Shown: in pieces, positions 49,812 through 64,000 of the stretch
Layout of the letters: the number at the start of each line of letters is the position of its first letter
Position numbering within the stretch: the stretch's first letter is position 1
Assembly: GCF_003207895.1 (NCBI RefSeq)
Contig: NZ_NKUB01000010.1
Location: 62,001 to 126,000, forward strand
DNA: 64,000 nucleotides
Direction of reading: 5' to 3'
DNA from: Komagataeibacter swingsii
GTDB lineage: Bacteria > Pseudomonadota > Alphaproteobacteria > Acetobacterales > Acetobacteraceae
The notes under the pieces: model-generated
Databases searched by the model: none
Told to the model about the DNA's origin: nothing
Seen by the model: the letters and a program-made list of their open reading frames with translations, nothing else
Position numbers and translations under genes: made by a program

Positions 49812-49881
49812 TCGGTCTGTTTCCGATCATAATTACACGAATTCAGTCAGGTATCGTTACTTTCAGGAGCAGGACGGGTTG

Positions 49882-51165
49882 ATGCAGTCTACCGGATTGA
49901 CGTCTGGACAACGGCGCGTTGTCGTAACCGGTATGGGCATTGTCAGCCCACTGGGACTGGGTGTGGAGCGTAACTGGTCACGTCTCGTGGCCGGGGAAAA
50001 CGGCTTTGGCCGCATTTCTTCGTTCGACGCGTCCGACCTGCCGGCACAGGTCGCGGGCGAAGTGCCCGCGGGGCCGACGGAAAGTGGCGGCCTGACCCTT
50101 TCGGACTGGATACCCGTCAAGGACCAGAAAAAGATGGATCGTTTCATCCATCTTGGTCTTGTGGCGGCGACCGAGGCGGTCGAGGATTCGGGCTGGAAGC
50201 CGGAATCGGAAGAAGACCGCTGCCGCACCGGTGTCATGATCGGTTCGGGGATTGGTGGCCTCCAGACCATTTACGAGGCATCGGTGACGGTGAAGGAAGG
50301 ACGGGCACGCCGCCTGTCACCCTTCTTCATCCCGTCCGCCCTGATCAACCTGGTCTCGGGGCATGTTTCGATCAAATACGGATTCAAGGGACCGAACCAT
50401 TCGGTCGTCACGGCCTGCGCCACGGGCGTACATGCCATTGGCGACGCCGCGCGCATGATCATGCTGGGCGATGCGGATGTCATGGTCGCCGGCGGGGCCG
50501 AAGCCGCCGTGTGCCCGCTGGGCATCGCGGGGTTCTGTTCCGCCAAGGCCCTGTCCACCCATTTCAACGATGAACCGGAAAAGGCATCCCGCCCGTGGGA
50601 CCGTGACCGCGACGGTTTCGTGATGGGTGAAGGCGCCGGTATCGTGGTGCTGGAAGAATACGAACACGCCAAGGCCCGTGGCGCCAAGATCTATGCCGAA
50701 GTCATCGGCTACGGCATGTCGGGCGATGCGCACCACATCACAGCACCCGCCGCCGGGCATGAAGGCGCTTTCCGCGCCATGCAGAACGCCCTGCGCAGCG
50801 CGGGCCTGACCCCGGCCGACATCCAGTACGTCAATGCTCATGGCACGTCCACCATGGCGGATGACCTGGAACTGGAAGCGGTTGAACGCCTGTTTGGCGA
50901 TGATGCGCGCAATCTGGCCATGTCGTCCACCAAGTCCGCCACCGGCCACCTGCTGGGGGCTGCGGGCGCGGTGGAAGCGATCTATTCCATCCTTGCCATT
51001 CGCGATAACGTGGCGCCGCCCACGCTCAACCTGGATAACCCGTCGCGTGAAAGCGTGATCGACCGGATCGCGCATACGGCGCAGGAACGCAAGATCGATA
51101 CGATCCTGTCCAACAGTTTCGGGTTTGGCGGGACCAATGCCAGCGTGATCTTGCGCGGCGTGTGA
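49882..51165 (+). CDS. fabF: 3-oxoacyl-ACP synthase II
   Basis: Condensing enzyme elongating acyl-ACP. It has 427 residues, with RRVVVTGMGIVSPLG, active-site Cys in VVTACATGVHAIG, and catalytic His in NAHGTSTMADD and STKSATGHLLGAAG; GFGGTNAS closes the fold. AGGAGC and AGGACGGG lie upstream of ATG 49882. An intrinsic terminator follows after four bases. Confidence 0.97.
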   Translation: MQSTGLTSGQRRVVVTGMGIVSPLGLGVERNWSRLVAGENGFGRISSFDASDLPAQVAGEVPAGPTESGGLTLSDWIPVKDQKKMDRFIHLGLVAATEAVEDSGWKPESEEDRCRTGVMIGSGIGGLQTIYEASVTVKEGRARRLSPFFIPSALINLVSGHVSIKYGFKGPNHSVVTACATGVHAIGDAARMIMLGDADVMVAGGAEAAVCPLGIAGFCSAKALSTHFNDEPEKASRPWDRDRDGFVMGEGAGIVVLEEYEHAKARGAKIYAEVIGYGMSGDAHHITAPAAGHEGAFRAMQNALRSAGLTPADIQYVNAHGTSTMADDLELEAVERLFGDDARNLAMSSTKSATGHLLGAAGAVEAIYSILAIRDNVAPPTLNLDNPSRESVIDRIAHTAQERKIDTILSNSFGFGGTNASVILRGV

Positions 51166-51169
51166 GACC

Positions 51170-51193
51170 GGGGCGCCTGCGGGCGCCCCTTTT
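51170..51193 (+). terminator. intrinsic terminator after fabF
   Basis: GGGGCGCC (51170-51177) pairs with GGCGCCCC (51182-51189) around TGCG, followed by TTTT. The T-run is short, so read-through into mltG is plausible. Confidence 0.7.
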
Positions 51194-51221
51194 CATTTCT
51201 GGGACAGGGTAAGGAGAGGGC

Positions 51222-52220
51222 GTGCGCAGGGTTCTGGCTGCACTTGGGCTGGTGTTTCTGGTGCTGGTCCTGTCCGCTCTGGCTATCGCCTTCATGGGGA
51301 TGCGGCATTACGAAGCCCCCGGTCCCCTGACCGAACAGCGTACGGTCGTGATCCCGCATGGCGGCACGGAACAGGTGCTGCTGACGTTGCAGCAGGCAGG
51401 CATTGTTGATGCCGGCCCGCTGACGCGCAGGGTGTTTGAAGCCGCAACCGCGCTGACCCGTGTGGATGGGGCGTTCCATGCCGCTGAACTGGTATTCCCC
51501 GCCCATGCCTCCATACAGCAGGTGCTGTTCGTGCTGCGACACGGCAGGCCGGTGGTGCACAGGCTGACAGTGCCCGAAGGCCTGTCCGCCATCCAGATTG
51601 CAAACCTGCTGGAACATGCGCCGTATATGGATGGCAGCTTTCCATTCCCTGCCGAAGGGGCGGTCATGCCGCTGACCTATGATTACGAATGGGGTATGCC
51701 GCGTGCGCAGATGCTGGCCCGCATGCAGCGCGCCATGGATCGCACGCTGGACCAGGCATGGGAAGGGCGGGAGGTGGACCCGACCATCATGAACCGACAT
51801 GACCTGCTGGTTCTGGCATCCATGATCGAGCGGGAGACGGGAAACCCGGCTGAACGGCCGATCGTGGCGCGTGTGTTCCTCAACCGCCTGCATCAGGGCA
51901 TGCGGCTGCAGTCCGACCCGACCGTGGTCTATGGGCTGAATCAGGGTGCGGGGCCACTGGGCCATGCCCTGTCCCATGCCGACCTCATGCAGCCTACGGC
52001 CTATAATACGTATGTGATAGCGGGCCTTCCGCCGGGGCCGATCTGTTCACCGGGGGCGGCGGCGCTGGAGGCCGCAGCCCACCCGGCACAGGGCGACCAG
52101 CTTTATTTCGTGGCGAACGGGCATGGGGGCCACGATTTTGCGGCGACGCTGGGGGATCATAACCGCAACGTATCGGCGTTTCGGGCCGGGAAACATGCAC
52201 AGGCCGCATCCCCCAGATAG
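51222..52220 (+). CDS. mltG: endolytic murein transglycosylase
   Basis: Inner-membrane lytic transglycosylase that cuts nascent glycan strands and sets their length. It has 332 residues. One N-terminal membrane helix (VLAALGLVFLVLVLSALAIAF) is followed by LysM-like and catalytic parts: LTVPEGLSAIQIANLL, the catalytic Glu in LASMIERETG, VFLNRLHQGMRLQSDPTVVYGL, NTYVIAGLPPGPICSPG. Translation begins at GTG 51222 with AAGGAGAGG in front. The fab-mltG linkage is widespread. Confidence 0.95.
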   Translation: MRRVLAALGLVFLVLVLSALAIAFMGMRHYEAPGPLTEQRTVVIPHGGTEQVLLTLQQAGIVDAGPLTRRVFEAATALTRVDGAFHAAELVFPAHASIQQVLFVLRHGRPVVHRLTVPEGLSAIQIANLLEHAPYMDGSFPFPAEGAVMPLTYDYEWGMPRAQMLARMQRAMDRTLDQAWEGREVDPTIMNRHDLLVLASMIERETGNPAERPIVARVFLNRLHQGMRLQSDPTVVYGLNQGAGPLGHALSHADLMQPTAYNTYVIAGLPPGPICSPGAAALEAAAHPAQGDQLYFVANGHGGHDFAATLGDHNRNVSAFRAGKHAQAASPR

Positions 52221-52249
52221 GGGGCGGGCGGCTGTGTCTGGCGGCGTGG

Positions 52250-53068
52250 TTACTGCGGCGGCAGGCTCTGGCTGCTGACCGATCCGGATGGGGCCGTTGC
52301 CATGGGCTGCGTCGTGGTGTCCGTATTCGTGGTGCTGGTCTTGCCATTCCTGTCCGGGCGGGCCTGTGCCGCAGTCAGGACCTCGGTCAGGGCAGAACGC
52401 AGCGGGTCCGCGCCTGAATTGTTGACCCGCATGGAAACCACGATGTCTTCCGGTCCCACGATCTGGTTGTAATAGGCCCGGTTGGCCGCACTGTTGACCC
52501 GCATCTTGGACCCGCCCAGGGCGGCGCCCGCGAACAGGCCCTTGGATTTCTGCACGCCCCGGATGGATGTGTTGTGTTCACCCGCCGTGCCGGTTTCCAG
52601 TCCCGACCCGGAGGAGGCGAAGGACGTGCCGACATCCGCGCTCAGCTTCATCTGGCTGTCCAGCAGGGACTGCACGCCGTCATCGGTCATGACGAACAGC
52701 ATGACCTCGACATCCTGCATGCCAAGCTGGAGGCCGAAATTGGCCGAGGACATGCGGTAGAACGCCGGGTCCGACCACGACCCGTGGGCGTCACGCGTCA
52801 GGAACACACAGCCGCCGCCCCCGCCGCCAAAGGCGATCGACATGCGAAAGACGGATGGGCAGACGATGACCCCGCGGGATTCAGCAAGGTAACGGGTCAC
52901 CTTGCTGCCTGCGGTCGCGGTGGAAAACATGTCACGAACGGTCAGGGTGGCGCGGTCCACCAGGCTCTGTTCTTCTTCCATGCTGGCAGCCATGGCGGCA
53001 TGCAGCGGCATCATCAGGGCCAGGGCGGCGAATGATGTCCTGATGAGATGAAACTTGTGCAAACCCAT
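52250..53068 (-). CDS. SYLF (Ysc84/DUF500) domain exported protein
   Basis: 272 residues with a signal peptide (FAALALMMPLHAAMAAS), then a SYLF lipid-binding-type domain: SRGVIVCPSVFRMSIAFGGGGGGCVFLTRD, FYRMSSANFGLQLGMQDVEVMLFVMTDDG, and GKSKGLFAGAALGG-like SKGLFAGAALGGSKM. The C-terminal 50 residues are a Thr/Ser-rich, low-complexity tail. SYLF proteins bind phosphoinositides in eukaryotes; the bacterial role is unknown, probably at the envelope. AAAGGGAGC precedes the start. Lipobox not seen. Confidence 0.8.
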   Translation of the reverse strand: MGLHKFHLIRTSFAALALMMPLHAAMAASMEEEQSLVDRATLTVRDMFSTATAGSKVTRYLAESRGVIVCPSVFRMSIAFGGGGGGCVFLTRDAHGSWSDPAFYRMSSANFGLQLGMQDVEVMLFVMTDDGVQSLLDSQMKLSADVGTSFASSGSGLETGTAGEHNTSIRGVQKSKGLFAGAALGGSKMRVNSAANRAYYNQIVGPEDIVVSMRVNNSGADPLRSALTEVLTAAQARPDRNGKTSTTNTDTTTQPMATAPSGSVSSQSLPPQ

Positions 53069-53194: not shown

Positions 53195-53983
53195 TTATTT
53201 AAGGGAGACGCCCACCGCGTCCGACAGCGTATCGGCAATGCCGGGGGCAGCGGCAAGGATGTGGATGCCTCCCGTCAGCCCGCCATCGCGCAGGAAGGGC
53301 GACACGCGCGCGCCGGCTTCATCCAGCAGGACAAGGGCTGCGGCCACATCCCACAGGTTGATGCAGATTTCCAGATAACCGTCCTGCCGGCCGCAGGCGA
53401 CTTCCGCAAGCGCAATGGCGCCCGAACCACCGGAACGCGGCATGGCGCCAAGGTTCAGGATGGCGTCGATCTTCTGCTGGAATACGCCGGGGGGCACGCG
53501 GTTGCTCCATCCCATCTCGATCAGGGAAGACGCGGTATCGGTCACGGGCGAGGCATGGATGCGCTGGCCATTGAGGAACGCCCCGTGTCCACGCACTGCC
53601 GTATAGGTTTCGCCCAGCGCGGGCGCTTCGATAATGCCGGCAACAGGCGTGTCGCCATCCAGCAGCCCAAGCGAGATGCACCAGCGGTTGCGGCCACGTG
53701 CATAGTTGGATGTCCCGTCAATCGGGTCCACCACCCAGCGCAGGGTGCCGGTGCGGGTACGGCCTTCTTCTTCCCCCTGAAAGCCGTCCTCGGGGAACAG
53801 CATGCCGATTCGTTCGGAAATGAAGGCTTCCACCGCGCCATCGGTTTCCGTCAGCCAGTCCTGCGCGCTTTTCAGCGTGCCCTTGGGGCCGCCGGGGGCG
53901 GGGCGCATTTTCATGGCCAGGGCTGCTGCATCGCGCACGACTGAACGGGCGGCTTCAAAACGGGTCAGAATGGCCTGTGTCAT
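53195..53983 (-). CDS. inositol monophosphatase family protein
   Basis: Mg-dependent sugar/inositol phosphate phosphatase fold, 262 residues. Metal-binding motifs are GEEEG (70-74), WVVDPIDGTSNYARG (86-91 core) and the C-terminal INLWDVAAALVLLDEAG. Substrates in this family include inositol-1-phosphate, histidinol phosphate and PAP. It is last in a minus-strand operon with lipid-related genes, 30 bases after mmcB. A part in sphingolipid head-group metabolism is possible but unproven. Confidence 0.87.
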   Translation of the reverse strand: MTQAILTRFEAARSVVRDAAALAMKMRPAPGGPKGTLKSAQDWLTETDGAVEAFISERIGMLFPEDGFQGEEEGRTRTGTLRWVVDPIDGTSNYARGRNRWCISLGLLDGDTPVAGIIEAPALGETYTAVRGHGAFLNGQRIHASPVTDTASSLIEMGWSNRVPPGVFQQKIDAILNLGAMPRSGGSGAIALAEVACGRQDGYLEICINLWDVAAALVLLDEAGARVSPFLRDGGLTGGIHILAAAPGIADTLSDAVGVSLK

Positions 53984-54013
53984 CGGGTAACCTTTTCTTG
54001 GGGTCAGAAAATC

Positions 54014-54514
54014 TCATTCCACGCGGAGCGCCGTTTTCACCGCGTGTTCCACCTGTGGCATTTCCATCCTGCCTAAACGCTCTGCGGCCTGCATGGCAAA
54101 CTGAAGTGTAAGCTGCCGCCGCCGCGCCGGGGCCAGCGCGGTATGTGGCGAGGGGCGCAGGATCGCGCAGTCAACACAGGTCGCACTCCCTTCCACGCCA
54201 TGGCCTGTCGCGGCCATGATCAGGCCGGTGGTATCGGGCAGGACAGCCTGTGGAAAATCCTGGTTCACGGCAAAATACATCTGGTCGCACCACGGTACAT
54301 ACTCGTGCCATTTCTGGTCGGCGCGGAAATCGGGCAGGCCGGACTTGATCTCGATACAGATGAAATGCCCCTTGGGCGTCAGCGCCATGATATCCGCGCG
54401 CCTGCGGCCCGGCAGGGTGAATTCATGCAGTGCTGCCCAGCCATGCAACCTGCACATCTGGCTTGCGCCGGTACGGATTGCGGACTGGATCTGCGGTGCG
54501 GTCGGGCGGGGCAT
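54014..54514 (-). CDS. mmcB: MmcB family DNA repair protein
   Basis: 166 residues with a PD-(D/E)XK nuclease-like core: GRRRADIMALTPKG (Asp41) and FICIEIKSG (Glu55, Lys57), then DFRADQKWHEYVPWCDQMYFAV. MmcB of Caulobacter is SOS-linked and associated with alternative polymerase repair. Its place here, between a nucleotidyltransferase and an IMPase-like gene, is not explained by repair and may just be operon hitch-hiking. No LexA box was identified. Confidence 0.85.
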   Translation of the reverse strand: MPRPTAPQIQSAIRTGASQMCRLHGWAALHEFTLPGRRRADIMALTPKGHFICIEIKSGLPDFRADQKWHEYVPWCDQMYFAVNQDFPQAVLPDTTGLIMAATGHGVEGSATCVDCAILRPSPHTALAPARRRQLTLQFAMQAAERLGRMEMPQVEHAVKTALRVE

Positions 54515-54530
54515 TGGGCGGATGGGGCGA

Positions 54531-55298
54531 TCAGGTCGCGGGCGCCACGGATAGCAGGCGGGTTACCAGTTCAAGGTCCGCGGGCTTGTCCACATCCACC
54601 GCCGCGCGCCCATCCGGCAGGGGCACCAGGGCCACCCGTGCATGCGATAGCTGCCCGATGCGGCGGCAGACGTCAGCGCGGGTCAGGCGCCGCAGGATAA
54701 AGCGCAGCAGGATACCTAGCCCCAGGATGCGCGCCATCCTGAACGGGTGCTTGCGCTCGGCTTCCAGCTTCTGCCACAGCCGTATCACGCCATAGGCGGC
54801 GGGCGTGCGGAACAGGAACATGTTGCAGCCCGAAAACGCACCATCCGCCAGCCGGATCATGGTGCGTTTCGTGCCCGGCACGTCACGCTGTATATCCGGT
54901 TCCATCGCGATGCCGGCCGCGACATCACACCCGCTGTCCCGCGCGCCCTGCATGAAGGCGCGGATCCAGCCTGGTTCCAGCAGGGCATGGTCGGCGGTCG
55001 TGACCAGCAGGGGCGTGCCCAGCGTGTCCAGCGCCCGCATGACGCTGGCGCTGGGACCGGCCGCGGGAGGAATGAAGGTCACGTTGTCAGGCACGATGCC
55101 GGCAAGGACGTCAGGCCGTTCGATGCAGATGGCAATCCTGCCGATGCCTTCGACCGCCTGCAGGGCCGAGATGACCCGGCTGATCATCGGGGTGCCACAT
55201 ATTGGCAGGATGGCCTTGTGCGAAATGCCCGCCGCCTGCGCCATCGGGTCGGGACGGCCCGGCCGGCTGCCCGCCAGGATCAGAACATTCAGCCCCAT
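54531..55298 (-). CDS. MobA-like NTP transferase domain protein
   Basis: 255 residues with a nucleotidyltransferase Rossmann fold. It starts MGLNVLILAGSRPGRPDP, an expanded form of the usual LAGGxSxRMG loop, then HKAILPICGTPMISRVI, PLLVTTADHALLEPGW (the metal Asp in TADHA), and VDVDKPADLELVT at the end. This suggests transfer of a nucleotide to a phosphorylated substrate (sugar-, polyol- or lipid-head-group phosphate). It is coupled to the hydroxylase gene (six-base gap). The substrate is unknown. A head-group activating enzyme for the sphingolipid locus is an attractive guess. Confidence 0.75.
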   Translation of the reverse strand: MGLNVLILAGSRPGRPDPMAQAAGISHKAILPICGTPMISRVISALQAVEGIGRIAICIERPDVLAGIVPDNVTFIPPAAGPSASVMRALDTLGTPLLVTTADHALLEPGWIRAFMQGARDSGCDVAAGIAMEPDIQRDVPGTKRTMIRLADGAFSGCNMFLFRTPAAYGVIRLWQKLEAERKHPFRMARILGLGILLRFILRRLTRADVCRRIGQLSHARVALVPLPDGRAAVDVDKPADLELVTRLLSVAPAT

Positions 55299-55304
55299 CT
55301 GTGG

Positions 55305-56087
55305 TCACGCCGCGTTACGGGTGGTGTTCGCGCCATCGGGCCGGTCACGCGGGGGGGCGCCGGTTTCTTCCATCACCCACGGGTAATGCTTGGCCTCGTT
55401 CACGTCATAACCGAGGTTGAACACGGTCGGGCTGCGCGGGCAGCCACGGGCGTCGACGTAATAGCTGCGGAACAGGCGGTCCGCCACAAAGCTGGTAATG
55501 CCGTAATTGCCGTTCTCGTTATGGAAATGGTGCAGCACGTGGCGCTGCTTCATCCGCTGGATCCAGCCCATGCGGGGCTTGTAGTTCAGGTGCTGGATGC
55601 AGTGGAAGAATTCATAGATGCACGTGATGGTCAGCCCCGCGCCGAAAGCCGCCGCCGCCCCGGCTATGCTGCCGATGGCGTAGCCGATGGGAATGGTGAC
55701 GATGGCAATGGTCGGGATGGTGTTGAGCGGGGAGCCGAACAGCACATCCAGCAGGTGGGGATCCTGATGGTGATCGAAATGGATGCGCTTCCACAGCGAG
55801 GCGCTCCATTTCATGCGATAAAGGAAACGCCCATGCAGGATGAAACGGTGGATGCCGTACCATACCAGCGGATAGACCAGGATGACGGATGCGATGCTGA
55901 CCGCCACCGGTGCGAGGGATGTGAAATTATATACCATCAACGCGTAGCTGACCAGCGCCAGTGCGAAATACAGCACGATGGTGGGATAGGTCAGGTAGGC
56001 AATCCAGAGCTGGGATAGGTTCATCTTGCCCAGGTCAAAGCTGCGACCCGTTCTGATGGAACTGTTTTTGAGGGTATTCGTAATCAT
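55305..56087 (-). CDS. membrane fatty acid hydroxylase / sterol desaturase family protein
   Basis: 260-residue integral membrane diiron oxygenase. Histidine motifs occur at HRFILH (80-85), HFDHH (103-107), HCIQH (162-166) and HVLHHFH (183-189), matching the 8-His pattern of the superfamily; four membrane segments lie between. Vinegar bacteria are reported to contain 2-hydroxypalmitoyl-sphinganine ceramides, so alpha-hydroxylation of the ceramide acyl chain is a reasonable candidate reaction. Its ATG overlaps the lptG stop (ATGA), tying it to transport genes. The long upstream frame to 56240 lies inside lptG and is rejected. Confidence 0.85.
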   Translation of the reverse strand: MITNTLKNSSIRTGRSFDLGKMNLSQLWIAYLTYPTIVLYFALALVSYALMVYNFTSLAPVAVSIASVILVYPLVWYGIHRFILHGRFLYRMKWSASLWKRIHFDHHQDPHLLDVLFGSPLNTIPTIAIVTIPIGYAIGSIAGAAAAFGAGLTITCIYEFFHCIQHLNYKPRMGWIQRMKQRHVLHHFHNENGNYGITSFVADRLFRSYYVDARGCPRSPTVFNLGYDVNEAKHYPWVMEETGAPPRDRPDGANTTRNAA

Positions 56088-57193
56088 CGCTCTTCGATCC
56101 TCAGTAGCACGGTGATGACGCCAAGGATGAAAATCAGGATCCCGACGAATATCGCCATAAGCGAGGGCAATGTTCCCGCATTTCCCAGTGCGCGCAACAG
56201 TCCCTGGAATACGATAAATAGCAGGCCCGCGCCCAGACACCAGATTGGCAGCCAGCTGCGCGTTCCGGCCCGCGGTGGGATATAGACCACCGGAACGGCC
56301 AGTAACAGCATTACCGTGAATGTCACGGGTAACATGATGCGTCCCAGTATTTCCGTCAGGAAAAAGGACGGGGACTGGCTGGAAGGCAGCGCGCCGCGCT
56401 GTTCATCCAGCATTGTGTTGATGGACTGTGTAAAGCTGACCGTCAACTGCATGATATATCCCGGCGTCAGTGACGCGGGCCAGTCCAGCCTTACGCTCTG
56501 GTCAGGGGGCGTATCAAGCAGGTCCACGCGCGTGGGGCTTATGACGCTGAGTACATGTGTTGGCGTGCCATACCAGTGGCCATGGATGTAATGGACATCC
56601 GCCAGCGTCGTGATTTTCTCCAGCAGGCTGCGCTGGTCGCGGTGATAGACGGTCACCGTATTCAGCATCGTGCCGCCAGAACTCAGGTAAATGATGTTTA
56701 TCAGGTCATTACCGGAGCGGATCCAGTAATTGTGCCTGTTTTTCGCGGCATGTGGCGCGGTGGCGTTCCACCATTGCGCCAGCGCCAGTTCGGTGCGGGG
56801 CGTGACCTGGTCATCCACGATTCCACACAGGACGCCCAGCGCGATGGTGGTGGGCAGCAGCAGCTTGACCAGCCCGGGCGTGGACAGCCCGGCCGCGCGC
56901 ATGATCGAGATCTCGTTTGATGTGGTCAGTTGCAGTAGGGTCAGCAGCGTGCCGATCAGCACCGCGATGGGCATGGCGTTGCCCAGCAGCAGCGGCAGGT
57001 GCAGCACGGCGTAGTACAGCACTCCCGTCAGCCCCAGCTTGCGGTGCATGATTTCCGTCACCTGCTCCAGCAGCGCCAGGATTTCCATGAGCGCCACGAC
57101 GATGATGGTGGTCGTGAACACCTTGGACAGCAGTTCGCGCGACAGGTAGCCCAGCAGGACCGTGCCGTTGTCCAGACGCAGCCGGAGCTTCAT
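56084..57193 (-). CDS. lptG: LptG-type permease
   Basis: Inner-membrane half of an LptB2FG-like exporter that extracts lipids from the inner membrane. It has 369 residues, with membrane helices near the N-terminus (VFTTTIIVVALMEILALLEQV, YYAVLHLPLLLGNAMPIAVLIGTLLTLLQ) and C-terminus, a beta-jellyroll periplasmic domain between, and the ATPase-contacting NEISIMRAAGLS coupling-helix motif. ATGA overlaps join it to lptF upstream and the hydroxylase downstream. Whether this is the LPS system or a second, lipid-specific pair cannot be told. Confidence 0.92.
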   Translation of the reverse strand: MKLRLRLDNGTVLLGYLSRELLSKVFTTTIIVVALMEILALLEQVTEIMHRKLGLTGVLYYAVLHLPLLLGNAMPIAVLIGTLLTLLQLTTSNEISIMRAAGLSTPGLVKLLLPTTIALGVLCGIVDDQVTPRTELALAQWWNATAPHAAKNRHNYWIRSGNDLINIIYLSSGGTMLNTVTVYHRDQRSLLEKITTLADVHYIHGHWYGTPTHVLSVISPTRVDLLDTPPDQSVRLDWPASLTPGYIMQLTVSFTQSINTMLDEQRGALPSSQSPSFFLTEILGRIMLPVTFTVMLLLAVPVVYIPPRAGTRSWLPIWCLGAGLLFIVFQGLLRALGNAGTLPSLMAIFVGILIFILGVITVLLRIEER

Positions 57194-58422
57194 GTCCCGC
57201 TTTCCACGATGCGGCGGGGCAGGCCATCGGCGGACAGTTCGCGTGGCGCAATAGCCGGCCCACGGGTCAGGAGGATGCGGATGCCACCGGCCTGGTGGAT
57301 CAGCATGCCGACACAGATCACGGCGAATAGGAGGGTCGGCAGCCAGATGACCAGCAGCGGGGACATGTGCATGTTGGCGACAAAGCTCATCCCCATCTGC
57401 AATGTATGGTCAAAGCTGACCAGTGTGATCGCGGCGATGGCCAGGCCGGGATTGCCCCGCTGCCGCTTGCGCACGCCGGCCAGCGCGCAGGCCAGGATGG
57501 GGATGAACGGAATGGCCGCCGTGCGGGCCAGGCGGAAGTGCAGTTCGGCAATCATGTAGGAGTGGCTGACGGACGGGTTGCCATGTCGTATACCGTAATA
57601 CAGTTCGGGGACCGTCAGTTCGCGTTCGGTCTCGCCACGTCCGTTATAGGCTTCATCATCCAGCTTGCCATTGCTCGAGATCATGCGGGTAGTACGGGTG
57701 AACCCCGTAACGGAAGGCTGCTTGTCACCGCTATCCGTCACGATGGTGCCATCTACCAGGTCAAGGCGTATCTGTGATCCGTCGGCGGGGTTGTAGAGAT
57801 AGCCCTTCTGTGCGGAAATATAGCGTATATGCGCCTTGTCCGACCGGTCGCGTATGAAGACATGCCACAGGCGAGACCCGGCGTGGTCGACCGTTTCCGC
57901 CGTAAGCACGATATTGTCCGAAATCGCGAACATCTTTGATTGCAGATGCGGCGTCCATCCCGCGTGGCTGGCGAAATAGAAGGCCGAGCGGTAGTCATAA
58001 CGCGCATAGGGCTGGATGAACCCGTAAAGCGAAAAGGCCAGCACCCCGAATACCGCGCCTGTCAGGACAAAGGGCTGGCAGATGCGGAAGATCGAGACCC
58101 CGCTTGCGGTCAGGGCATCGATTTCGTGGTTGGCGCTCATGCGCCGGATCACGGAGAACACGCTTACGCACATGGCGGCGGGCAACGCCAGCCCCAGGTA
58201 ATGCGGCACAAGGTCGCTGAGCAGCGCGACAAACGTCTTCATCGAACTGCCATTGGCCGCCAGCATGTCGAACAGCACCAGCAGCCGTTCCAGCAGCAGG
58301 GCGGCCATGACCACGCCCAGCGCAATGGAAAACGGCGGCACGACCTGACGCAGCAGGTAGCGGTCCATTGTGCTGGGAGCGAGCTTTTCCATTATCCGCT
58401 CTGAAAAGGACATCTGACTCAT
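57190..58422 (-). CDS. lptF: LptF-type permease
   Basis: Partner of LptG, 410 residues. MDRYLLRQVVPPFSIALGVV begins the first helix; a second is LLSDLVPHYLGLALPAAMCVSVFSVIRRM; the coupling motif is NHEIDALTASGVS, followed by a jellyroll and three C-terminal helices. Several ATGs are possible (58449, 58422, 58392, 58368); 58422 is chosen because it overlaps the metallophosphoesterase stop as ATGA, the pattern used throughout this operon. An LptB-type ATPase gene is not in the window. Confidence 0.91.
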   Translation of the reverse strand: MSQMSFSERIMEKLAPSTMDRYLLRQVVPPFSIALGVVMAALLLERLLVLFDMLAANGSSMKTFVALLSDLVPHYLGLALPAAMCVSVFSVIRRMSANHEIDALTASGVSIFRICQPFVLTGAVFGVLAFSLYGFIQPYARYDYRSAFYFASHAGWTPHLQSKMFAISDNIVLTAETVDHAGSRLWHVFIRDRSDKAHIRYISAQKGYLYNPADGSQIRLDLVDGTIVTDSGDKQPSVTGFTRTTRMISSNGKLDDEAYNGRGETERELTVPELYYGIRHGNPSVSHSYMIAELHFRLARTAAIPFIPILACALAGVRKRQRGNPGLAIAAITLVSFDHTLQMGMSFVANMHMSPLLVIWLPTLLFAVICVGMLIHQAGGIRILLTRGPAIAPRELSADGLPRRIVESGT

Positions 58423-59360
58423 GCAGGCGTGCTTACACCGGAAAAACACCCTGAAGGAGAGGGAAGGTCAAAAATAGTTTCCTGGCTGGTGCCTGTCGTT
58501 GCATCAGCCAGGAAAAAACGCCGTGTGACACCCAGCCTGTAACCGGCGGCGTGCGGGGTGACCGTAATATGGTTCCACCCCGCCGCGCGCAATGGATCGC
58601 ATGACCGTGCCGAAGCCGATGCGATCCCCATCACCGGCACCGGCCCCACCGGGCCGGGGAGGGAGGACAGGGTCGAGGTATGGATGTGCCCGTGCAGGAT
58701 CATCTCGGCGCCGTCCTGTGCGATACAGGTGGCAAAATCCTGTATGTCCGTCAGGGCTTTACGGCGTATGGCCAGATCGGGGACAGGGGGATGATGGATC
58801 ATGACGATGCGGCACAGCCCCTGGTGCGCGGTTTCGCGCAGGATGTCACGTAGGCGTGCGGCCTGTCGCGCGCCCACCGTCCCGGTTGCACGGAACCATG
58901 GTGTCGGCACGGCGGAACTGACGCCAATCAGCGCCACGTTTCCCACCCTGCGGACAAAGGGAAAGGGAAGCGCCCCCATCCACGGCTGCCACAGTCCCAC
59001 GGTCTGATGCCATCTGTCATGCACAAGGGTGTCATGATTCCCCGGTATGACTGTGCAGGGGGCTGGCATCAGCTCCAGCCAGCGCAGGGCCTGCCGGCAT
59101 TCCCCCGGCAGGCCCATGTTGGTCAGATCCCCGGTCACGGCAATCATGCCGACCCTGCTGGTCCTGATGTCGTCCATGACACGGGCCAGGATTTCGGGCC
59201 GATGCAGGAAGCGGCGGCGGCCTTTCCACGAAAAATAGCTGAACATGCGCTTGTTCAGGCGTTCCCCGATGCGGGGGGGCACCATTTCGGTGGGCAGGTG
59301 GGGGTCAGACAGATGCGCAATGGTGATGGTGTTCAAGCTGACCTCGTTTCCCTGCCTCAT
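58419..59360 (-). CDS. calcineurin-like metallophosphoesterase
   Basis: About 313 residues with the full metal-binding set: HLSDPHLP, VTGDLTNMG, PGNHD, MIHHPP and HGHIH. The family hydrolyses phosphomonoesters or diesters, including lipid-linked ones (LpxH is a relative). It is the first gene of the lptF-lptG-hydroxylase operon and may act on a phosphorylated lipid or nucleotide-lipid. ATG 59360 is used, but TTG 59336 has a better ribosome site (GAGG six bases upstream) and would remove only eight residues. Confidence 0.85.
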   Translation of the reverse strand: MRQGNEVSLNTITIAHLSDPHLPTEMVPPRIGERLNKRMFSYFSWKGRRRFLHRPEILARVMDDIRTSRVGMIAVTGDLTNMGLPGECRQALRWLELMPAPCTVIPGNHDTLVHDRWHQTVGLWQPWMGALPFPFVRRVGNVALIGVSSAVPTPWFRATGTVGARQAARLRDILRETAHQGLCRIVMIHHPPVPDLAIRRKALTDIQDFATCIAQDGAEMILHGHIHTSTLSSLPGPVGPVPVMGIASASARSCDPLRAAGWNHITVTPHAAGYRLGVTRRFFLADATTGTSQETIFDLPSPSGCFSGVSTPA

Positions 59361-59484
59361 GCCCGCCGCGTGCGGTCGGGACATGTGTTATGCCTGCCCG
59401 CGCGGAAGGGCGCTCCATCTTTTCGTGCCTTGCAATAGAAGGCAGATGGTTGCTTATGGCCTGTAAGTCAAATTTCAGACAGGG

Positions 59485-60477
59485 ATGGAATATTCAGTGA
59501 CCGGACGTTTTGCGCTTGTTTACAACCCGCGCAGCCGGCGGAACATGGGGGACAGGAGTGCATACGCCCGGACAGCCCGGACCCTGCTGGGAGAAAACTT
59601 CATTGATCCGGCTGACCGTTCCCGTCTGGATGCCCATATCGCCCAATTGGCGTCCCGCGGCACGGATTGCATCGTCATAGATGGCGGTGATGGTACCGTA
59701 AGCGACGTGCTGACCGCCATCCACCGGCATTATCCGCCCGACAGGCTGCCCGCCCTCGCCATCCTGCCGTCCGGCAATACCAACCTGATCGCGGGGGATG
59801 TCGGTTTCGGGCTGCGTGGCATCCGGGCGCTGGAGCACCTGCAGCGGCTTGATGCATCCGGGCAGTTGCGGCGCAACGTGCGCAGGCGCTGTGGCCTGGT
59901 GGTGGAATGGCCCGAACCCGACGGGCCGCTGCCGGTTGTGGGCATGTTCCATGGGGCGGCCGCATTTACACGTGGGATCGAACTGGCCCACCAGCCTGCG
60001 ATCCTGAATAATTATTCACATGAAATGGCTGTCATCGTCTCCTTCCTTTCTTCGGTGGCGCATCTGCTGACAAAGCGTTCCCGCCAGGACTGGATGCGCG
60101 GCGACCAGATGGACGTGAAGGCTGGCAAGACCTTCCAGCGGCAGGGGAACTGTTTCCTGTTCCTGTCCACCACGCTCCAGCACCTGCCCCATGGCATCTG
60201 GCCATTCTGGACGGCGCCCGGGGCGCGTGACGATGTCATCAACTTCCTGCACGTGGCGGGGCAACCTTCCCACCTTGCGGCCGCGGCATGGGCGCTGCTG
60301 CGCGGGCGGCACCCGACATGGCTGCAGCATAACCCGGATTATTGCAGCGGGTGCGAAGACCGCATCGAAATGACGATGAAATCCGATTTCGTACTGGATG
60401 GGGAAGTCATGTCCCCCGGTGCTACCGGCCGGATCGTACTGTCGGCGACGGCCCCGATCGATTTCATCCACGCGTAA
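59485..60477 (+). CDS. diacylglycerol-kinase-fold lipid kinase, candidate ceramide kinase
   Basis: 330 residues with the DAGK/YegS catalytic domain: FALVYNPRSRRN, VIDGGDGTVSDVL (GGDGT at 67-71), and ILPSGNTNLIAGDVG in place of the usual PxGTxND. The C-terminal half (GMFHGAAAFTRG, FLFLSTTLQHL, FVLDGEVM) resembles the lipid-binding part. A DAGK-like enzyme in the Caulobacter sphingolipid pathway has been reported as a ceramide kinase. The nearness to spt makes ceramide or a similar lipid the likely substrate (inference). It diverges from the metallophosphoesterase and precedes the Tam41-like gene by 12 bases. Confidence 0.8.
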   Translation: MEYSVTGRFALVYNPRSRRNMGDRSAYARTARTLLGENFIDPADRSRLDAHIAQLASRGTDCIVIDGGDGTVSDVLTAIHRHYPPDRLPALAILPSGNTNLIAGDVGFGLRGIRALEHLQRLDASGQLRRNVRRRCGLVVEWPEPDGPLPVVGMFHGAAAFTRGIELAHQPAILNNYSHEMAVIVSFLSSVAHLLTKRSRQDWMRGDQMDVKAGKTFQRQGNCFLFLSTTLQHLPHGIWPFWTAPGARDDVINFLHVAGQPSHLAAAAWALLRGRHPTWLQHNPDYCSGCEDRIEMTMKSDFVLDGEVMSPGATGRIVLSATAPIDFIHA

Positions 60478-60489
60478 GGAATGGCGAGC

Positions 60490-61458
60490 ATGTCCCAGCC
60501 CAGCCCCACAGACCGCACTGCCGCAGCCGGACGGGTCGCCCACCTACTGGCGCATGACCTGGTCCAGCCTGTCGCCCCCTTCGTCACGCAGTTTGTCACG
60601 CGCCTGCTGGGCGGGACGCAGCCGCTGGGGGTGGTTTTTTATGGCTCCGCCCTGCGTGCGCCCGATCCCGAGGGCATCCTGGATTTTTACGTGATTGTCG
60701 AGCGCCTGGAAGACTGGACGTCGAGCTATCTGGCACGTGAAGCCAACCGTATCCTGCCCCCCAATGTGGAATATCATGAAATTCCCATTGATGGCCGGAC
60801 CATCCGGGCCAAGGTGGCCATCCTGTCCATCGCGCAGTTCCGGCGCATGACGGGTCGCGCCACGCTGGATACTACGGTCTGGGCACGTTTTTGCCAGCCC
60901 GTGCGGCTGGTATGGGTCAGGGGACCGGACGCGGCTGACGCCATCCTGGCCTGCATCATCCGCGCGGTGGGGCAGGCAGGTCGGTGGGCTGCGGCGCTGG
61001 GGCCGGCGCAGGGCACGGCCGATGACTACTGGCTGGCCCTGTTCGCCCATACCTATGGCGCGGAACTGCGCGTCGAGAACGGCCGCAGGCCGCGTAGCCT
61101 GCTGCAGGGACAGGAAGGGCGATACAGGGCGCTGCTGCCGGATGTATGGCGCGCGGATGGGCTGCCATTCCGGTACGAGGGGGATCAGCTGACGCCCCAG
61201 TTGACACCTGAACTGCGCCGGACCATGCGTGAAGGCTGGTGGCTGCGTGGCCGGCTGGGCCGCGTGCTGAATGTCAGCCGCCTGTTCAAGGGGGCCTTCA
61301 CGTTTGAAGGGGGCGCACGCTATATCGCATGGAAGATCAGGCGGCATTCCGGAATCGAGCTGCCGCTGGGGCCGTTTTCGGAACGGCACCCACTGGTCTG
61401 CCTGCCGTATCTGCTGTGGAAATTACGGCAGGCAGGGTTTTTCAGGCGGCGCGGCTGA
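60490..61458 (+). CDS. Tam41/Mmp37-like nucleotidyltransferase, candidate lipid-phosphate cytidylyltransferase
   Basis: 322 residues. From residue 47 GVVFYGSALRAP, ILDFYVIVERLEDWT, ILPPNVEYHEI, then IRAKVAILSIAQF, WARFCQPVRLVWV and LFAHTYGAELRVE line up with mitochondrial Tam41, the CDP-diacylglycerol synthase (YGSG...DF, W, NxxxY, lysine-containing IKYGV, GRLQKPV, and a later Y-x-G-D/E-R region). The YGS and Asp65 would be the nucleotide and metal site. With the lipid kinase just upstream, it could make CDP-activated lipid, for example CDP-ceramide. AAGGA lies nine bases before ATG 60490, which is preferred to 60481. The alignment is by eye. Confidence 0.68.
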   Translation: MSQPSPTDRTAAAGRVAHLLAHDLVQPVAPFVTQFVTRLLGGTQPLGVVFYGSALRAPDPEGILDFYVIVERLEDWTSSYLAREANRILPPNVEYHEIPIDGRTIRAKVAILSIAQFRRMTGRATLDTTVWARFCQPVRLVWVRGPDAADAILACIIRAVGQAGRWAAALGPAQGTADDYWLALFAHTYGAELRVENGRRPRSLLQGQEGRYRALLPDVWRADGLPFRYEGDQLTPQLTPELRRTMREGWWLRGRLGRVLNVSRLFKGAFTFEGGARYIAWKIRRHSGIELPLGPFSERHPLVCLPYLLWKLRQAGFFRRRG

Positions 61459-62644
61459 TACCCATCTCGCTCGCCACCACGGCGAAGATTTCCACGGCCC
61501 GGTCTATCTGTTCCGGTGTATGCGTCGCCATGACGGAGGTACGCAGCAGGGGATGCTGGTCGGGCGTCGCGGGTGGCAGGCTGAGGTTGACGTAAACCCC
61601 CAGGTCCAGCAGCCGGTTCCAGAACGCCACGGCAACTGCCACATCATCCAGAATGACGGATACGACAGGACTGGCCTGCGGGCCGGTACGCAGGCCCGCG
61701 GCCTGCAGCCCGGCATGCAGCCTGCGGGCATTGTCCATCAGCCGCACGCGCAGTTCAGGCTGGTTTTCCAGTTCGGTCAGCGCGGCCATGGTCGCTGCGA
61801 TGACTTCAGGCGGCAGGGACGCGGTGAACATGTAAGGGCGCGAGCACAGACGGATCAGGTCCAGCCCCTCATGGTTGGAAACACAGTAGCCCCCAACCGT
61901 GCCAAGGCTTTTGGAAAAGGTGCCGACGACAAAATCGACATCATCTTCCACGCCGTCGGCTTCCGCCACGCCACGGCCATGTTCACCCATTACGCCAACG
62001 GAATGCGCTTCATCCGCCAGCAGCCATGCGCCGGTTTCCCGTTTGACCGCCGCGAATTCCTTCATGGGCACGACGTCGCCCAGCATGGAATAGATGCCTT
62101 CGACCACGACCAGCTTAGCCCCGGGCGTGCCATCAAGGCGGCGCAGGCGTTTGTGCAGGTCGTCGGCGTCATTATGGCGGAAGCGGATGACCTGCGCATG
62201 GCCAAGGCGGCTGCCATCATAGATGCTGGCATGGCTGTCCGCATCAAGCAGCAGGTAGTCGTCCTTGCCCGCCAGCGCGGAAATCGTGCCCAGATTGGCC
62301 TGGTACCCGGTGGAGAACACCATGCAGTGCCGACGGCGGAAGAACGCGCAGAGCCGTTCCTCCAACTGGCGGTGCAGTCCCTGCGTGCCGTTGGCGATGC
62401 GCGATCCGGTCGTGCCGACACCGTAAGCCCTGGCCGCCTCGACCGCCGCTTCGATCGCGGCGGGAGACTGGCTCAACCCAAGGTAGTTGTTGGTGCCGAA
62501 CAGGAGTGTCTCACGCCCTTCGATCAGCCCGACCGTGGAGGAAATGGGCTTTTCGATAACGACGTTGAACGGGTTGCGCCCGCCACCAGCCATGACAGCC
62601 GACAGGGCGGAGGCCAGGCCTTCATATTTCGAGAAAATTGACAT
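61442..62644 (-). CDS. spt: serine palmitoyltransferase
   Basis: PLP alpha-oxoamine synthase condensing L-serine with an acyl thioester to 3-ketosphinganine, the first sphingolipid step. It has 400 residues. GTNNYLGLSQSPAAIEAA, GTTGSRIANGTQGLH, FSTGYQANLG, LDADSHASIYDGS, EGIYSMLGDVVPM, DEAHSVGVMGEHGRG and the PLP Lys245 in GTFSKSLGTVGGY match bacterial Spt more closely than KbL or BioF, where the GTTGSRIANG loop differs. ACP lies six bases upstream. Its 3' end overlaps the Tam41-like gene by 17 bases in convergent orientation. Confidence 0.9.
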   Translation of the reverse strand: MSIFSKYEGLASALSAVMAGGGRNPFNVVIEKPISSTVGLIEGRETLLFGTNNYLGLSQSPAAIEAAVEAARAYGVGTTGSRIANGTQGLHRQLEERLCAFFRRRHCMVFSTGYQANLGTISALAGKDDYLLLDADSHASIYDGSRLGHAQVIRFRHNDADDLHKRLRRLDGTPGAKLVVVEGIYSMLGDVVPMKEFAAVKRETGAWLLADEAHSVGVMGEHGRGVAEADGVEDDVDFVVGTFSKSLGTVGGYCVSNHEGLDLIRLCSRPYMFTASLPPEVIAATMAALTELENQPELRVRLMDNARRLHAGLQAAGLRTGPQASPVVSVILDDVAVAVAFWNRLLDLGVYVNLSLPPATPDQHPLLRTSVMATHTPEQIDRAVEIFAVVASEMGISRAA

Positions 62645-62650
62645 GACGGA

Positions 62651-62902
62651 TCAGGAGGCCTGCTTGAGGGAGACGATGCAGGCGGCCAGATCATCAATGG
62701 TGCGGATATCAGCCAGCCGGTCAAGCGGCACGGAAACATCGAGCGTATCCTCGATTTCCATGACAAAATTCATGACGGCCAGTGAATCAAAGGCCAGATC
62801 TTCAACGATCTTGCTGCTGCCATTGATATCACGGGGAACCTTGGGGTTCGCCAGCAGCGTCTTCACGATCAGCGCGGAGACGCTCGCTACCGTTTCACTC
62901 AT
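62651..62902 (-). CDS. dedicated acyl carrier protein of the sphingolipid locus
   Basis: 83 residues with the carrier motif LAFDSLAVMNF; Ser40 would carry phosphopantetheine. It differs strongly from AcpP at 49572 (less acidic, LAFDSL rather than LGADSL). In Caulobacter a specific ACP lies beside spt and is needed for ceramide synthesis, likely loading the acyl chain for Spt. Position directly before spt and after the acyl-AMP ligase supports the same role here. Confidence 0.88.
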   Translation of the reverse strand: MSETVASVSALIVKTLLANPKVPRDINGSSKIVEDLAFDSLAVMNFVMEIEDTLDVSVPLDRLADIRTIDDLAACIVSLKQAS

Positions 62903-63077
62903 TCCTACATCCTTATGGCATGTCCCGCCTGCTTGCTTGCAGGCAGGGGATCAGCATGAATGGCCTGCCCCACGGTCAATGACCGGGGTGGGGACTGCAA
63001 TCGGCCCCCTGATCGGAAGTCTTATGATCGAAAAACAGGTTTTTGGCCAGTCCTGCTTTGCATTCCGGCCCGAAACG

Positions 63078-63098
63078 GCCGGGCCTCGTGGCCCCGGC
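63078..63098 (-). terminator. possible terminator after the acyl-AMP ligase
   Basis: On the minus strand GCCGGGGCC and GGCCCGGC pair around ACGA with one bulge, five bases after the stop. The following CGTTTCG has only a short T-run, so termination would be weak and partial read-through to acp-spt is likely. Confidence 0.35.
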
Positions 63099-63102
63099 TC
63101 CC

Positions 63103-64000
63103 TCAGACCACGGAAACAGACGACGTTTCCAGCGGCTGGAACGCACCCGACAGCAGCATGGCTTTCGCACGGGCGCGTGTCAGCTTTCCCGATGATGTCT
63201 GGGGCAGGGTATGGGGCGGCACCAGAATGATGGAAACATCCACGCCATGCTGCCGACGGAACAGGCTGGCCGTTTCGGTTTTCAGGGTTTCACGTGCTTC
63301 GGGGGAGGAGGCGCGGCACTGCACAAGGGCCACGATCTTTTCGCCCTCATCCTCATCAACCGAAAAGACGGCGACATCGCGGCTGCGCAGGCTGCTGATT
63401 TCGGTTTCGGCCGACCATTCCAGGTCCTGCGGCCAGATATTGCGACCGTTGATGATGATCAGGTCCTTGGCGCGGCCGGTTATGACAACCTGGCCATCCA
63501 GCATGTACCCCAGGTCACCGGTGTTCAGCCAGCCATTGGCATCCACGACGCGGGCGGTTTCCTGCGGGCGGCGGAAATATCCCTGCATCAGGCTGGGACC
63601 ACGCACGAATACGGCGCCCACCTGGCGGTCACGCAGCACGTTTCCCTGTGGGTCGCGTACTTCAAGTTCATGGTGCGGCAGGACTTCGCCACAGATGACG
63701 AATGTGCGCAGCGCGCGTGCGGGATCGTTGGACGGCACGGCTTCGCCACGTGTTTCAAGCGCGCGCAGGTCAATCGTATCCGTGCGGATACCCGATCCAA
63801 GTGGCGCGAAACTGATGGCCAGCGTCGCCTCGGCCATGCCGTAGCTGGCTGTAAAGGCGCTGCTGTCAAAGCCTGCGGAGGCAAAACGCTGGGCGAAATC
63901 CTCAAGGATATGATAGCGGATCATGTCGCCACCGATACCCGCCACGCGCCATGATGACAGGTCCAGCTCGATCGAGGTGGCGCGTCGTGCGCACAGCTCG
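63103..64000 (-). CDS. fatty acyl-AMP ligase / acyl-ACP synthetase (partial, 5' end outside the window)
   Basis: The frame is open from the right edge and ends at 63103, giving about 298 C-terminal residues of an ANL adenylating enzyme. YGMAEATLAISF, GPSLMQGYFRRP, GWLNTGDLGYMLDGQVVITGR and KDLIIINGRNIWPQDLEWSAE are typical of fatty acyl-AMP ligases; the C-terminal Lys lies in PQTSSGKLTRARAKAML. It probably activates a fatty acid and loads it on the neighbouring ACP for Spt or ceramide synthase, as the acyl-ACP synthetase does in Caulobacter. The in-frame GTG at 63945 is internal and not the true start. Confidence 0.87.
   Translation of the reverse strand, partial: ELCARRATSIELDLSSWRVAGIGGDMIRYHILEDFAQRFASAGFDSSAFTASYGMAEATLAISFAPLGSGIRTDTIDLRALETRGEAVPSNDPARALRTFVICGEVLPHHELEVRDPQGNVLRDRQVGAVFVRGPSLMQGYFRRPQETARVVDANGWLNTGDLGYMLDGQVVITGRAKDLIIINGRNIWPQDLEWSAETEISSLRSRDVAVFSVDEDEGEKIVALVQCRASSPEARETLKTETASLFRRQHGVDVSIILVPPHTLPQTSSGKLTRARAKAMLLSGAFQPLETSSVSVV

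Follow-up and report, generated by a model that had tools for sequence, protein, structure and literature searches.

A probable variant of the Caulobacter-type phosphosphingolipid locus with a different head-group module in Komagataeibacter swingsii

The closest described relative of the system considered here is the Caulobacter crescentus cluster CC_1152-CC_1168 for ceramide phosphoglycerate (CPG) and CPG2, which the relevant passages of PMC11324152 (2024) describe as holding a ceramide kinase, a CofC-like nucleotidyltransferase, a phosphoesterase and LptF2/LptG2/LptC2, and as having orthologues in six further proteobacteria. In this study, we examine its likely counterpart around spt, the serine palmitoyltransferase gene, at the right end of a 64,000-nucleotide stretch of Komagataeibacter swingsii DNA (contig NZ_NKUB01000010.1 of assembly GCF_003207895.1; the whole stretch is hereafter called the window). 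According to the same passages of PMC11324152, CC_1161 carries a cytidine diphosphate-diacylglycerol (CDP-DAG) synthase domain and was proposed to form a nucleoside diphosphate (NDP)-activated ceramide, CC_1159 has a CDP-alcohol-type domain, CC_1158 has a phosphoesterase domain, CC_1153 is similar to CofC, and CC_1155, CC_1156 and CC_1168 are a second LptG, LptF and LptC, respectively. Both CC_1160 and CC_1161 are required for CPG there, and a mutant of CC_1152 (CpgD) still produces CPG, which fits activation on the ceramide side. Each phosphoglycerate unit adds 168 to the mass, as between the ions at m/z 704 and 872. A flippase (CC_1166) is also counted among the parts of the Caulobacter locus. 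CpgB of Caulobacter is a ceramide kinase (PMC10331486). In the parts of the later papers that deal with these steps, CpgD is reported to make CDP-glycerate (PMC12275187), its structures are presented (PMC13228409), and the mechanism of the conversion of ceramide-1-phosphate to CPG (CpgC) is called unidentified in both (2025 and 2026 preprint, respectively). For acetic acid bacteria, the passages of PMC9386255 on Gluconobacter oxydans describe adjacent spt, acpR and aasR (GOX2056-2058), as in the window, with cerR and cerS homologues distant from spt; this account covers the ceramide genes only, not the neighbourhood of kinase, Tam41-like and export genes.

The locus in the window is read here as a variant, in the family of its host (Acetobacteraceae), of the Caulobacter-type phosphosphingolipid locus, with a route from synthesis to export (probability about 0.75). 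This reading draws directly on gene families, the Tam41 fold of a protein model, linkage, co-occurrence, a second Lpt pair and absences within readable sequence. Twelve open frames lie between 53195 and the window edge at 64000, all of them where an earlier reading of the bare sequence (the original prediction) had placed them. That prediction spoke of a ten-gene locus although its own list held twelve; ten of the twelve do fit one system. The frames, and one gene beyond the edge, are as follows.

53195..53983, minus strand: inositol monophosphatase (IMPase)-like gene (PF00459, E 3e-49)
54014..54514, minus strand: mmcB-like DNA repair gene (PF06319, E 8e-44)
54531..55298, minus strand: MobA/CofC-like nucleotidyltransferase (NTP_transf_3), probable CC_1153 counterpart (PF12804, E 8e-16)
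55305..56087, minus strand: membrane protein of the FA_hydroxylase family, candidate ceramide hydroxylase (PF04116, E 6e-20)
56084..57193, minus strand: LptG2, putative sphingolipid exporter permease (PF03739, E 2e-52)
57190..58449, minus strand: LptF2, putative sphingolipid exporter permease (PF03739, E 1e-55)
58419..59384, minus strand: calcineurin-like metallophosphoesterase, probable CC_1158 counterpart (PF00149, E 5e-11)
59485..60477, plus strand: DAGK-fold lipid kinase, predicted ceramide kinase and CpgB counterpart (PF00781, DAGK_cat, E 5e-13)
60481..61458, plus strand: Tam41-fold nucleotidyltransferase (AlphaFold2 model), predicted cytidine triphosphate (CTP):ceramide-1-phosphate cytidylyltransferase and CpgC/CC_1161 counterpart
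61442..62644, minus strand: spt, serine palmitoyltransferase (NF047599 equivalog, 645 bits, cut-off 500)
62651..62902, minus strand: acpR, specialised acyl carrier protein (ACP), directly upstream of spt (PF00550, E 3e-10)
63103..64000, minus strand, cut by the window edge (full frame to the equivalent of 64899): aasR, acyl-ACP synthetase of the fatty acyl-AMP ligase family (NF006624, 905 bits for the full frame, cut-off 600)
Beyond the right edge, overlapping the start of aasR, by spacing apparently in the same unit as spt-acpR-aasR: 377-amino-acid TagF-like gene, whose family resembles TagF

The gene families (Inositol_P, MmcB-like, NTP_transf_3, FA_hydroxylase, LptF_LptG twice, Metallophos, DAGK_cat, SPT, PP-binding and fatty acyl-AMP ligase) agree with those originally predicted, as does the arrangement, with the kinase and Tam41-like genes on the plus strand converging on the minus-strand spt side and diverging from the minus-strand metallophosphoesterase side. 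The end of the Tam41-like gene overlaps that of spt by 17 bases, only 3 bases separate it from the kinase gene, and the starts of the kinase and metallophosphoesterase genes lie 100 bases apart on opposite strands. Mutual overlaps or gaps of at most 6 bases join lptF, lptG, the hydroxylase gene and the nucleotidyltransferase gene. This spacing suggests three units: kinase-Tam41; spt-acpR-aasR and the 377-amino-acid gene; and metallophosphoesterase-lptF-lptG-hydroxylase-nucleotidyltransferase. Within the last, the hydroxylase more likely starts at 56087 (260 amino acids, 4-base overlap with lptG) than at 56240, the start of the long frame.

Linkage across related genomes, which the original prediction had put forward as a check, was observed throughout the loci read: each of the 17 loci from the window's family holds the kinase, Tam41-like, spt, metallophosphoesterase, lptF and lptG genes as a group. 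These loci comprise 14 fetched by the Tam41-like gene, two fetched by spt and the window's own, and a further 97 loci outside the family were fetched by spt (18) or by the Tam41-like gene (79). Neighbourhoods were obtained for 20 of the 31 Spt genomes and for 14 of the 22 other family genomes with the Tam41-like gene; one locus (L092), on the same contig as L058, was dropped. Absences at loci are weak evidence because many loci end at contig edges. Among the other-family loci, those fetched by spt hold the Tam41-like gene in 13 and the kinase gene in 10 of 18 cases, and those fetched by the Tam41-like gene hold the kinase gene, spt and lptF in 63, 62 and 60 of 79 cases, respectively. Co-occurrence points the same way. 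The Tam41-like gene was found in 23 of 60 genomes searched, all in the window's family, and Spt over its cut-off in 23 of 36 genomes of that family, the same 23; in a sample of 240 genomes of the class, Spt was found in 31 (E <=1e-130), the Tam41-like gene in 28 (E <=1e-10) and both in 27. Fisher tests on these counts take related genomes to be independent. A scan of contigs of named genomes matched at least 597 stretches, of which 536 were confirmed and the best 80 kept. Most of these 80 are alphaproteobacterial, together with three Nitrospirales contigs, one from Ectothiorhodospiraceae and one from Marinimicrobia; no Caulobacter is among the best 80 of the 536. In the Nitrospirales contigs (L118, L143 and L157), the kinase and Tam41-like genes and two CDP-alcohol transferase genes each were seen, with no Spt in these stretches, and L143 and L157 additionally hold FA_hydroxylase, cerS-like, CofC-like and Lpt genes.

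The Tam41-like label given in the original prediction is borne out at the level of structure. An AlphaFold2 model of the protein, built from a 50-row alignment, has a mean predicted local distance difference test score (pLDDT) of 91.9 and a predicted template modelling score (pTM) of 0.90, and the top Foldseek matches are bacterial Tam41 with CTP-Mg (7ecd, E 1.1e-8) and mitochondrial Tam41. VIA-align superposes 7ecd with Z 18.5 over 228 residues (root-mean-square deviation, rmsd, 3.2) and 6ig4 with Z 15.6 over 225 residues (rmsd 4.7), and the next fold, an aminoglycoside nucleotidyltransferase, reaches only Z 6.9. A fold common to mitochondrial and bacterial Tam41, a CDP-DAG synthase, extends over 225-228 residues at an identity of about 14%, and the predicted substrate here would be ceramide-1-phosphate, not phosphatidic acid. 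Invariant in the family alignment are YGS (54-56), D68, K111, R136, Q139 and a C-terminal T...Y...K...H...P pattern, and the YGS...D motif is that of the CTP-using Tam41 enzymes. The Tam41 family model PF09139 (Tam41_Mmp37) is matched by 6 of 50 aligned family sequences (best E 2.6e-8), the window protein not being among them. Sequence searches of solved structures with the protein or its profile gave best E-values of 0.04 and 0.29. From fold and genomics, it seems rather likely that this enzyme makes CDP-ceramide from ceramide-1-phosphate and CTP. Literature searches found no paper for the term CDP-ceramide, nor for Tam41 together with ceramide and nucleotidyltransferase.

The kinase and the permeases likewise side with sphingolipid clusters. 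With GGDG at residue 67 and no CxxxCxxC in a scripted motif search, the kinase matches the description of CpgB in PMC10331486, and it scores 133, 123 and 49 bits against cluster kinases vs 16 bits against the other DAGK protein of the genome; it is predicted from sequence to be a ceramide kinase of the CpgB type. The LptF/LptG pair at the window is the second of two in the genome. LptF2 scores 219, 190 and 190 bits against cluster LptF proteins vs 62 against the genome's other LptF, and LptG2 scores 138, 136 and 104 bits against cluster LptG proteins of other species vs 26 against the genome's other LptG. By analogy, the pair probably carries the product toward the outer membrane. Another linkage of Spt with Lpt genes was seen in E. 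coli BL21(DE3) (L187:1283-9067), in which yghO and genes for a fatty acyl-AMP ligase, an epimerase, an ACP and Spt are followed by an lptG/lptF pair.

The locus differs from known clusters mainly in its head-group genes. Caulobacter has CpgD (CC_1152) and a CDP-alcohol transferase (CC_1159), neither of which was found for the window's locus. As a reference for CpgD, we used the phosphocholine cytidylyltransferase family protein of the Roseomonas mucosa cluster, in which R13, N87, N107, S168 and W199 are spaced by 74, 20, 61 and 31; it was taken as CpgD because these spacings match those of Arg16, Asn90, Asn110, Ser170 and Trp201 (74, 20, 60 and 31) given for CpgD in the structural passages of PMC13228409. 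A CpgD-like profile was then built from three proteins of named clusters and run on 31 genomes (E 1e-10). It matched strongly in 7 of 10 Spt genomes of other families (261-356 bits; none in G202, G074 and G166, and the strong match in G200 has an internal stop) and in 0 of 14 Spt genomes of the window's family (8 at <=51 bits and 6 without a match at this threshold). The best match in the source genome is partial, at 43.5 bits, and scores of 87-97 bits occur in two family genomes without Spt. The nucleotidyltransferase of the window was itself tried as CpgD and rejected, since Roseomonas holds both genes in a single cluster and the window protein matches the other. Similarly, a CDP-alcohol transferase of about 400 amino acids is found in 0 of 17 loci of the window's family; the two PF01066 (CDP-alcohol transferase) proteins of the source genome have frames of 217 and 290 amino acids vs roughly 360-460 for the cluster proteins. 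What the window has kept resembles the reference clusters: its nucleotidyltransferase is 48-49% identical to those of two Roseomonas clusters and one Diaphorobacter cluster, and its metallophosphoesterase is 39-42% identical to that of the three reference clusters. The nearest solved structure of the nucleotidyltransferase is Thermus TTHA0179 (2dpw; E 7e-20, 75 bits). A phospho-glyceroyl group occurs in polar lipids of Thermus and Deinococcus, and a role of the nucleotidyltransferase in handling glycerate would be in keeping with this.

A TagF-like gene stands beside the cluster in this lineage. It was found in 14 of 17 family loci, and the other three read N next to aasR; of the 14, one copy is partly hidden beside an N stretch, one (L083) is only a 195-amino-acid frame, and one (L081) is not beside aasR, which falls outside the stretch read. 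In the class sample, the family occurs in 6 of 240 genomes, of which five carry Spt and G126 does not; misses in G061 and G193 are uninformative because of N stretches next to aasR, and N bases may hide genes in the other searches as well. PF04464 (Glyphos_transf) is matched by 7 of 11 family members (best E 1.3e-6), with the protein of the window's genome not among them, and the HGAGD, APH and GD.SSQ motifs of the family resemble those of TagF. A model of the homologue in L160 (3-row alignment, pLDDT 80.8) has the GT-B fold, with glycosyltransferases and epimerases as the top Foldseek rows. Since TagF (Z 22.5) and UDP-N-acetylglucosamine 2-epimerase (Z 23.8) are about level, the fold does not decide the identity of the gene as TagF. 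A search of solved structures with the protein gave no match, and one with its profile ranked the TagF-like Cps3D (E 0.006) below an unrelated protein (E 0.002). Given that CpgD and the CDP-alcohol transferase are missing and that a TagF-like gene lies beside the cluster, the head group is probably not CPG2, and the TagF-like transferase may take the place of the two missing proteins in this lineage. Its assignment to the head-group step itself is tentative. Elsewhere in the source genome, a second TagF-like copy (contig C16, L195:7742-10276) is followed by a glycosyltransferase gene. The protein it encodes shares 53% identity with one from within the sphingolipid cluster of a different genus of the family (L080:12248-13321), which looks as though a portion of the cluster had been relocated. 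The clusters of two other genera have nearby genes (L066:436-1350 and L079:18341-19246) whose products look alike by eye, and the L066 protein matches GINT1_N (glucosamine inositolphosphorylceramide transferase, E 2e-39), a domain known from a plant sphingolipid enzyme.

Taken in order, the proposed route would begin with AasR, which would charge AcpR with a fatty acid that Spt would condense with serine. CerS, encoded elsewhere in the genome, would then N-acylate the product, and the FA_hydroxylase may hydroxylate the ceramide. The DAGK-fold kinase would convert ceramide to ceramide-1-phosphate, from which the Tam41-fold enzyme would form CDP-ceramide with CTP. A head group would be joined through a phosphodiester with the help of the CofC-like nucleotidyltransferase and the metallophosphoesterase, the TagF-like transferase beside aasR would replace CpgD and the CDP-alcohol transferase, and LptF2/LptG2 would move the product toward the outer membrane. 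The kinase, activation and export steps are modelled on Caulobacter; the hydroxylase substrate, the acceptor and the head group are what we infer. In its fullest form, this scheme yields a phospho-sphingolipid made via CDP-ceramide, to which a teichoic-acid-type transferase adds a head group from a donor made by the CofC-like enzyme, in replacement of the CpgD and CDP-alcohol transferase module; such an undescribed head group is a speculative outcome at present.

Several observations weigh against this reading. The Tam41-like protein itself matches no Pfam or NCBIfam model, lying below every Pfam threshold. The PF09139 model has 0 matches in the source genome and matches in 1 of 14 control genomes (Methanocaldococcus), with none in Caulobacter; lacking a match in either the source genome or the Caulobacter control, this sequence model neither supports the assignment nor reaches CC_1161. 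The likeness to Caulobacter and the naming of CC counterparts rest on gene order and the domains stated in the Caulobacter paper, not on sequence comparison. In the class sample, the Tam41-like gene is missing from 4 of the 31 genomes with Spt, and 1 of the 28 genomes that carry it has no Spt. No clear CerR was found in the genome, where the epimerase-like profile matches reach at best 107 bits. We know of no enzyme that joins a head group to CDP-ceramide. In addition, the passages of the acetic acid bacterium literature that bear on this matter name only ceramide or dihydroceramide, and among the matches listed, judged by titles and abstracts, none describes a complex sphingolipid of these bacteria, although one may still be in print.

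The end product could also be plain CPG, as predicted for Zymomonas, with the TagF-like gene serving something else, for example a surface polysaccharide. That neither CpgD nor the CDP-alcohol transferase, both needed for CPG2 in Caulobacter, was found would accord with this, as would the Z. mobilis part of PMC11324152, which concludes for plain CPG in that organism, the second TagF-like copy next to a glycosyltransferase gene, and the lack of Spt in G126. However, genes of the CC_1153 and CC_1158 types, used for CPG2 in Caulobacter, are kept in 15 of 17 and 17 of 17 family loci, respectively, and the TagF-like family is rare and mostly found with Spt. Plain CPG is possible, though we regard it as doubtful. 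It is also conceivable that the kinase and the Tam41-like protein act on glycerolipids, converting diacylglycerol to phosphatidic acid and CDP-DAG, and lie next to spt by chance, since Tam41 makes CDP-DAG and diacylglycerol kinases have the same fold as the kinase. We consider this improbable, because both genes co-occur strongly with Spt across families, the kinase is more like the cluster kinases than like the other DAGK protein of the genome, and the Caulobacter counterparts are needed for CPG, with loss of CpgB leaving phosphatidic acid unchanged, according to the pertinent passages of PMC11324152 and PMC10331486.

For the Tam41-fold enzyme, a different reaction may be considered, in which it would join phosphoglycerate or glycerate to ceramide-1-phosphate and no CDP-ceramide would be formed. 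As set out in the mechanistic passages of PMC11324152, a separate joining enzyme was not found in Caulobacter and direct attachment of glycerate by CC_1161 was the first proposal, but the authors deem such attachment energetically not very favourable. Together with the fold and motif assigned above to CTP-using Tam41, this makes direct joining unlikely, and the formation of CDP-ceramide is the reaction to test first, because the Tam41 fold travels with Spt.

The genes for the ceramide backbone are partly at the locus. Profile matches (NF047599, PF00550 and NF006624) give a set of Spt, specialised ACP and acyl-ACP synthetase. The original prediction had suggested looking for ceramide synthase and ketosphinganine reductase past the right edge; the contig (one of 113 in the 3.73-Mb source genome) continues for 2765 bases there and then ends, and these bases hold the rest of aasR and the 377-amino-acid TagF-like gene instead. 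A cerS gene lies on a separate contig (C102, profile E 9e-109), and its product is a relative of YghO (207 bits to E. coli YghO). The CerR search of the genome gave 13 epimerase-like matches, headed by a 107-bit epimerase-like protein and one of 104 bits, with a further full-length match at 64 bits; the 104-bit epimerase (contig C46) was discarded as CerR, being HpnA over the cut-off of that model. Divergent to cerS stands a classical short-chain dehydrogenase (SDR; L183:7529-8326), a candidate to take over the ketone-reducing step in a genome that yielded no clear CerR. The membrane hydroxylase has the motifs HFDHH, HQDPH, HCIQH and HVLHH, is 61% identical to a sterol desaturase family gene of the R. 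mucosa cluster and is present in 39 of 97 loci outside the family. Ceramides with 2-hydroxyacyl chains occur in acetic acid bacteria.

The cluster shares with that of Caulobacter Spt, AcpR, AasR, a ceramide kinase, a CDP-DAG-synthase-like protein, a CofC-like nucleotidyltransferase, a phosphoesterase and a second LptF/LptG; it differs in having no CerR or CerS inside, an FA_hydroxylase in the operon and a TagF-like gene beside aasR. Nearer in layout are the clusters of Roseomonas haemaphysalidis, R. marmotae and R. mucosa (recorded as Acetobacteraceae), which show the same order of nucleotidyltransferase, lptG, lptF, metallophosphoesterase / kinase, Tam41-like / spt, acpR. Apart from a short acpR match, the R. 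haemaphysalidis and R. mucosa proteins are 29-62% identical to those of the window (Spt 60-62%). The Roseomonas clusters keep a CpgD-like phosphocholine cytidylyltransferase family protein, a CDP-alcohol transferase, HIT, DUF2141, CerS (by sequence for R. haemaphysalidis and R. mucosa) and an annotated SDR or epimerase gene. All three species carry the whole locus on replicons of 320-421 kb that are listed as plasmids. Many phosphosphingolipid genes were also seen on plasmid pDCB2 of Diaphorobacter sp. JS3051 (NZ_CP065408.1), typed as conjugative IncP. This set (CpgD-like, CofC-like, cerS-like, two CDP-alcohol transferases, LptF/LptG, HIT, metallophosphoesterase, Tam41-like and kinase) adjoins nonribosomal peptide synthetase/P450 genes and a mercury operon, and the 28.9 kb shown include no annotated Spt.

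At the left end, mmcB and the IMPase gene continue the metallophosphoesterase-to-nucleotidyltransferase run at gaps of 16 and 30 bases. They lie near the cluster in 12 and 13 of 17 family loci, respectively; of the 97 loci from other families, none has mmcB and one has the IMPase gene nearby, so both are probably neighbours and not parts of the system as originally listed. A single functional unit of all twelve genes was rejected for the same reason, this linkage being almost confined to the window's family. Further to the left, 49879-53068 holds unremarkable genes, namely fabF, mltG (YceG) and one for a SYLF/Ysc84 lipoprotein.

The original prediction was largely right in function: a phosphorylated, probably CDP-activated and head-group-bearing lipid beyond ceramide, with its own LptF/LptG pair, is what the locus points to. 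It was also largely in print, because the Caulobacter work states the same steps. The claim that the full combination was undescribed does not stand beside the cluster and ideas set out in the passages cited from PMC11324152 (2024) and the spt/acpR/aasR adjacency in those from PMC9386255, and NDP-ceramide activation was discarded as a new idea, being in the former already. The outline holds, and it omitted the real differences, namely the lack of CpgD and of the CDP-alcohol transferase and the TagF-like gene present instead. The system is a known one of the Caulobacter type, and the novelty lies in the variant of its head-group module in the window's family. This family is a natural experiment, in which the kinase, the Tam41-like enzyme and the exporter are kept and CpgD and the CDP-alcohol transferase are missing. 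A trial cited in the literature on acetic acid bacteria had them consumed to supply ceramide, so the fate of their ceramide is of practical interest.

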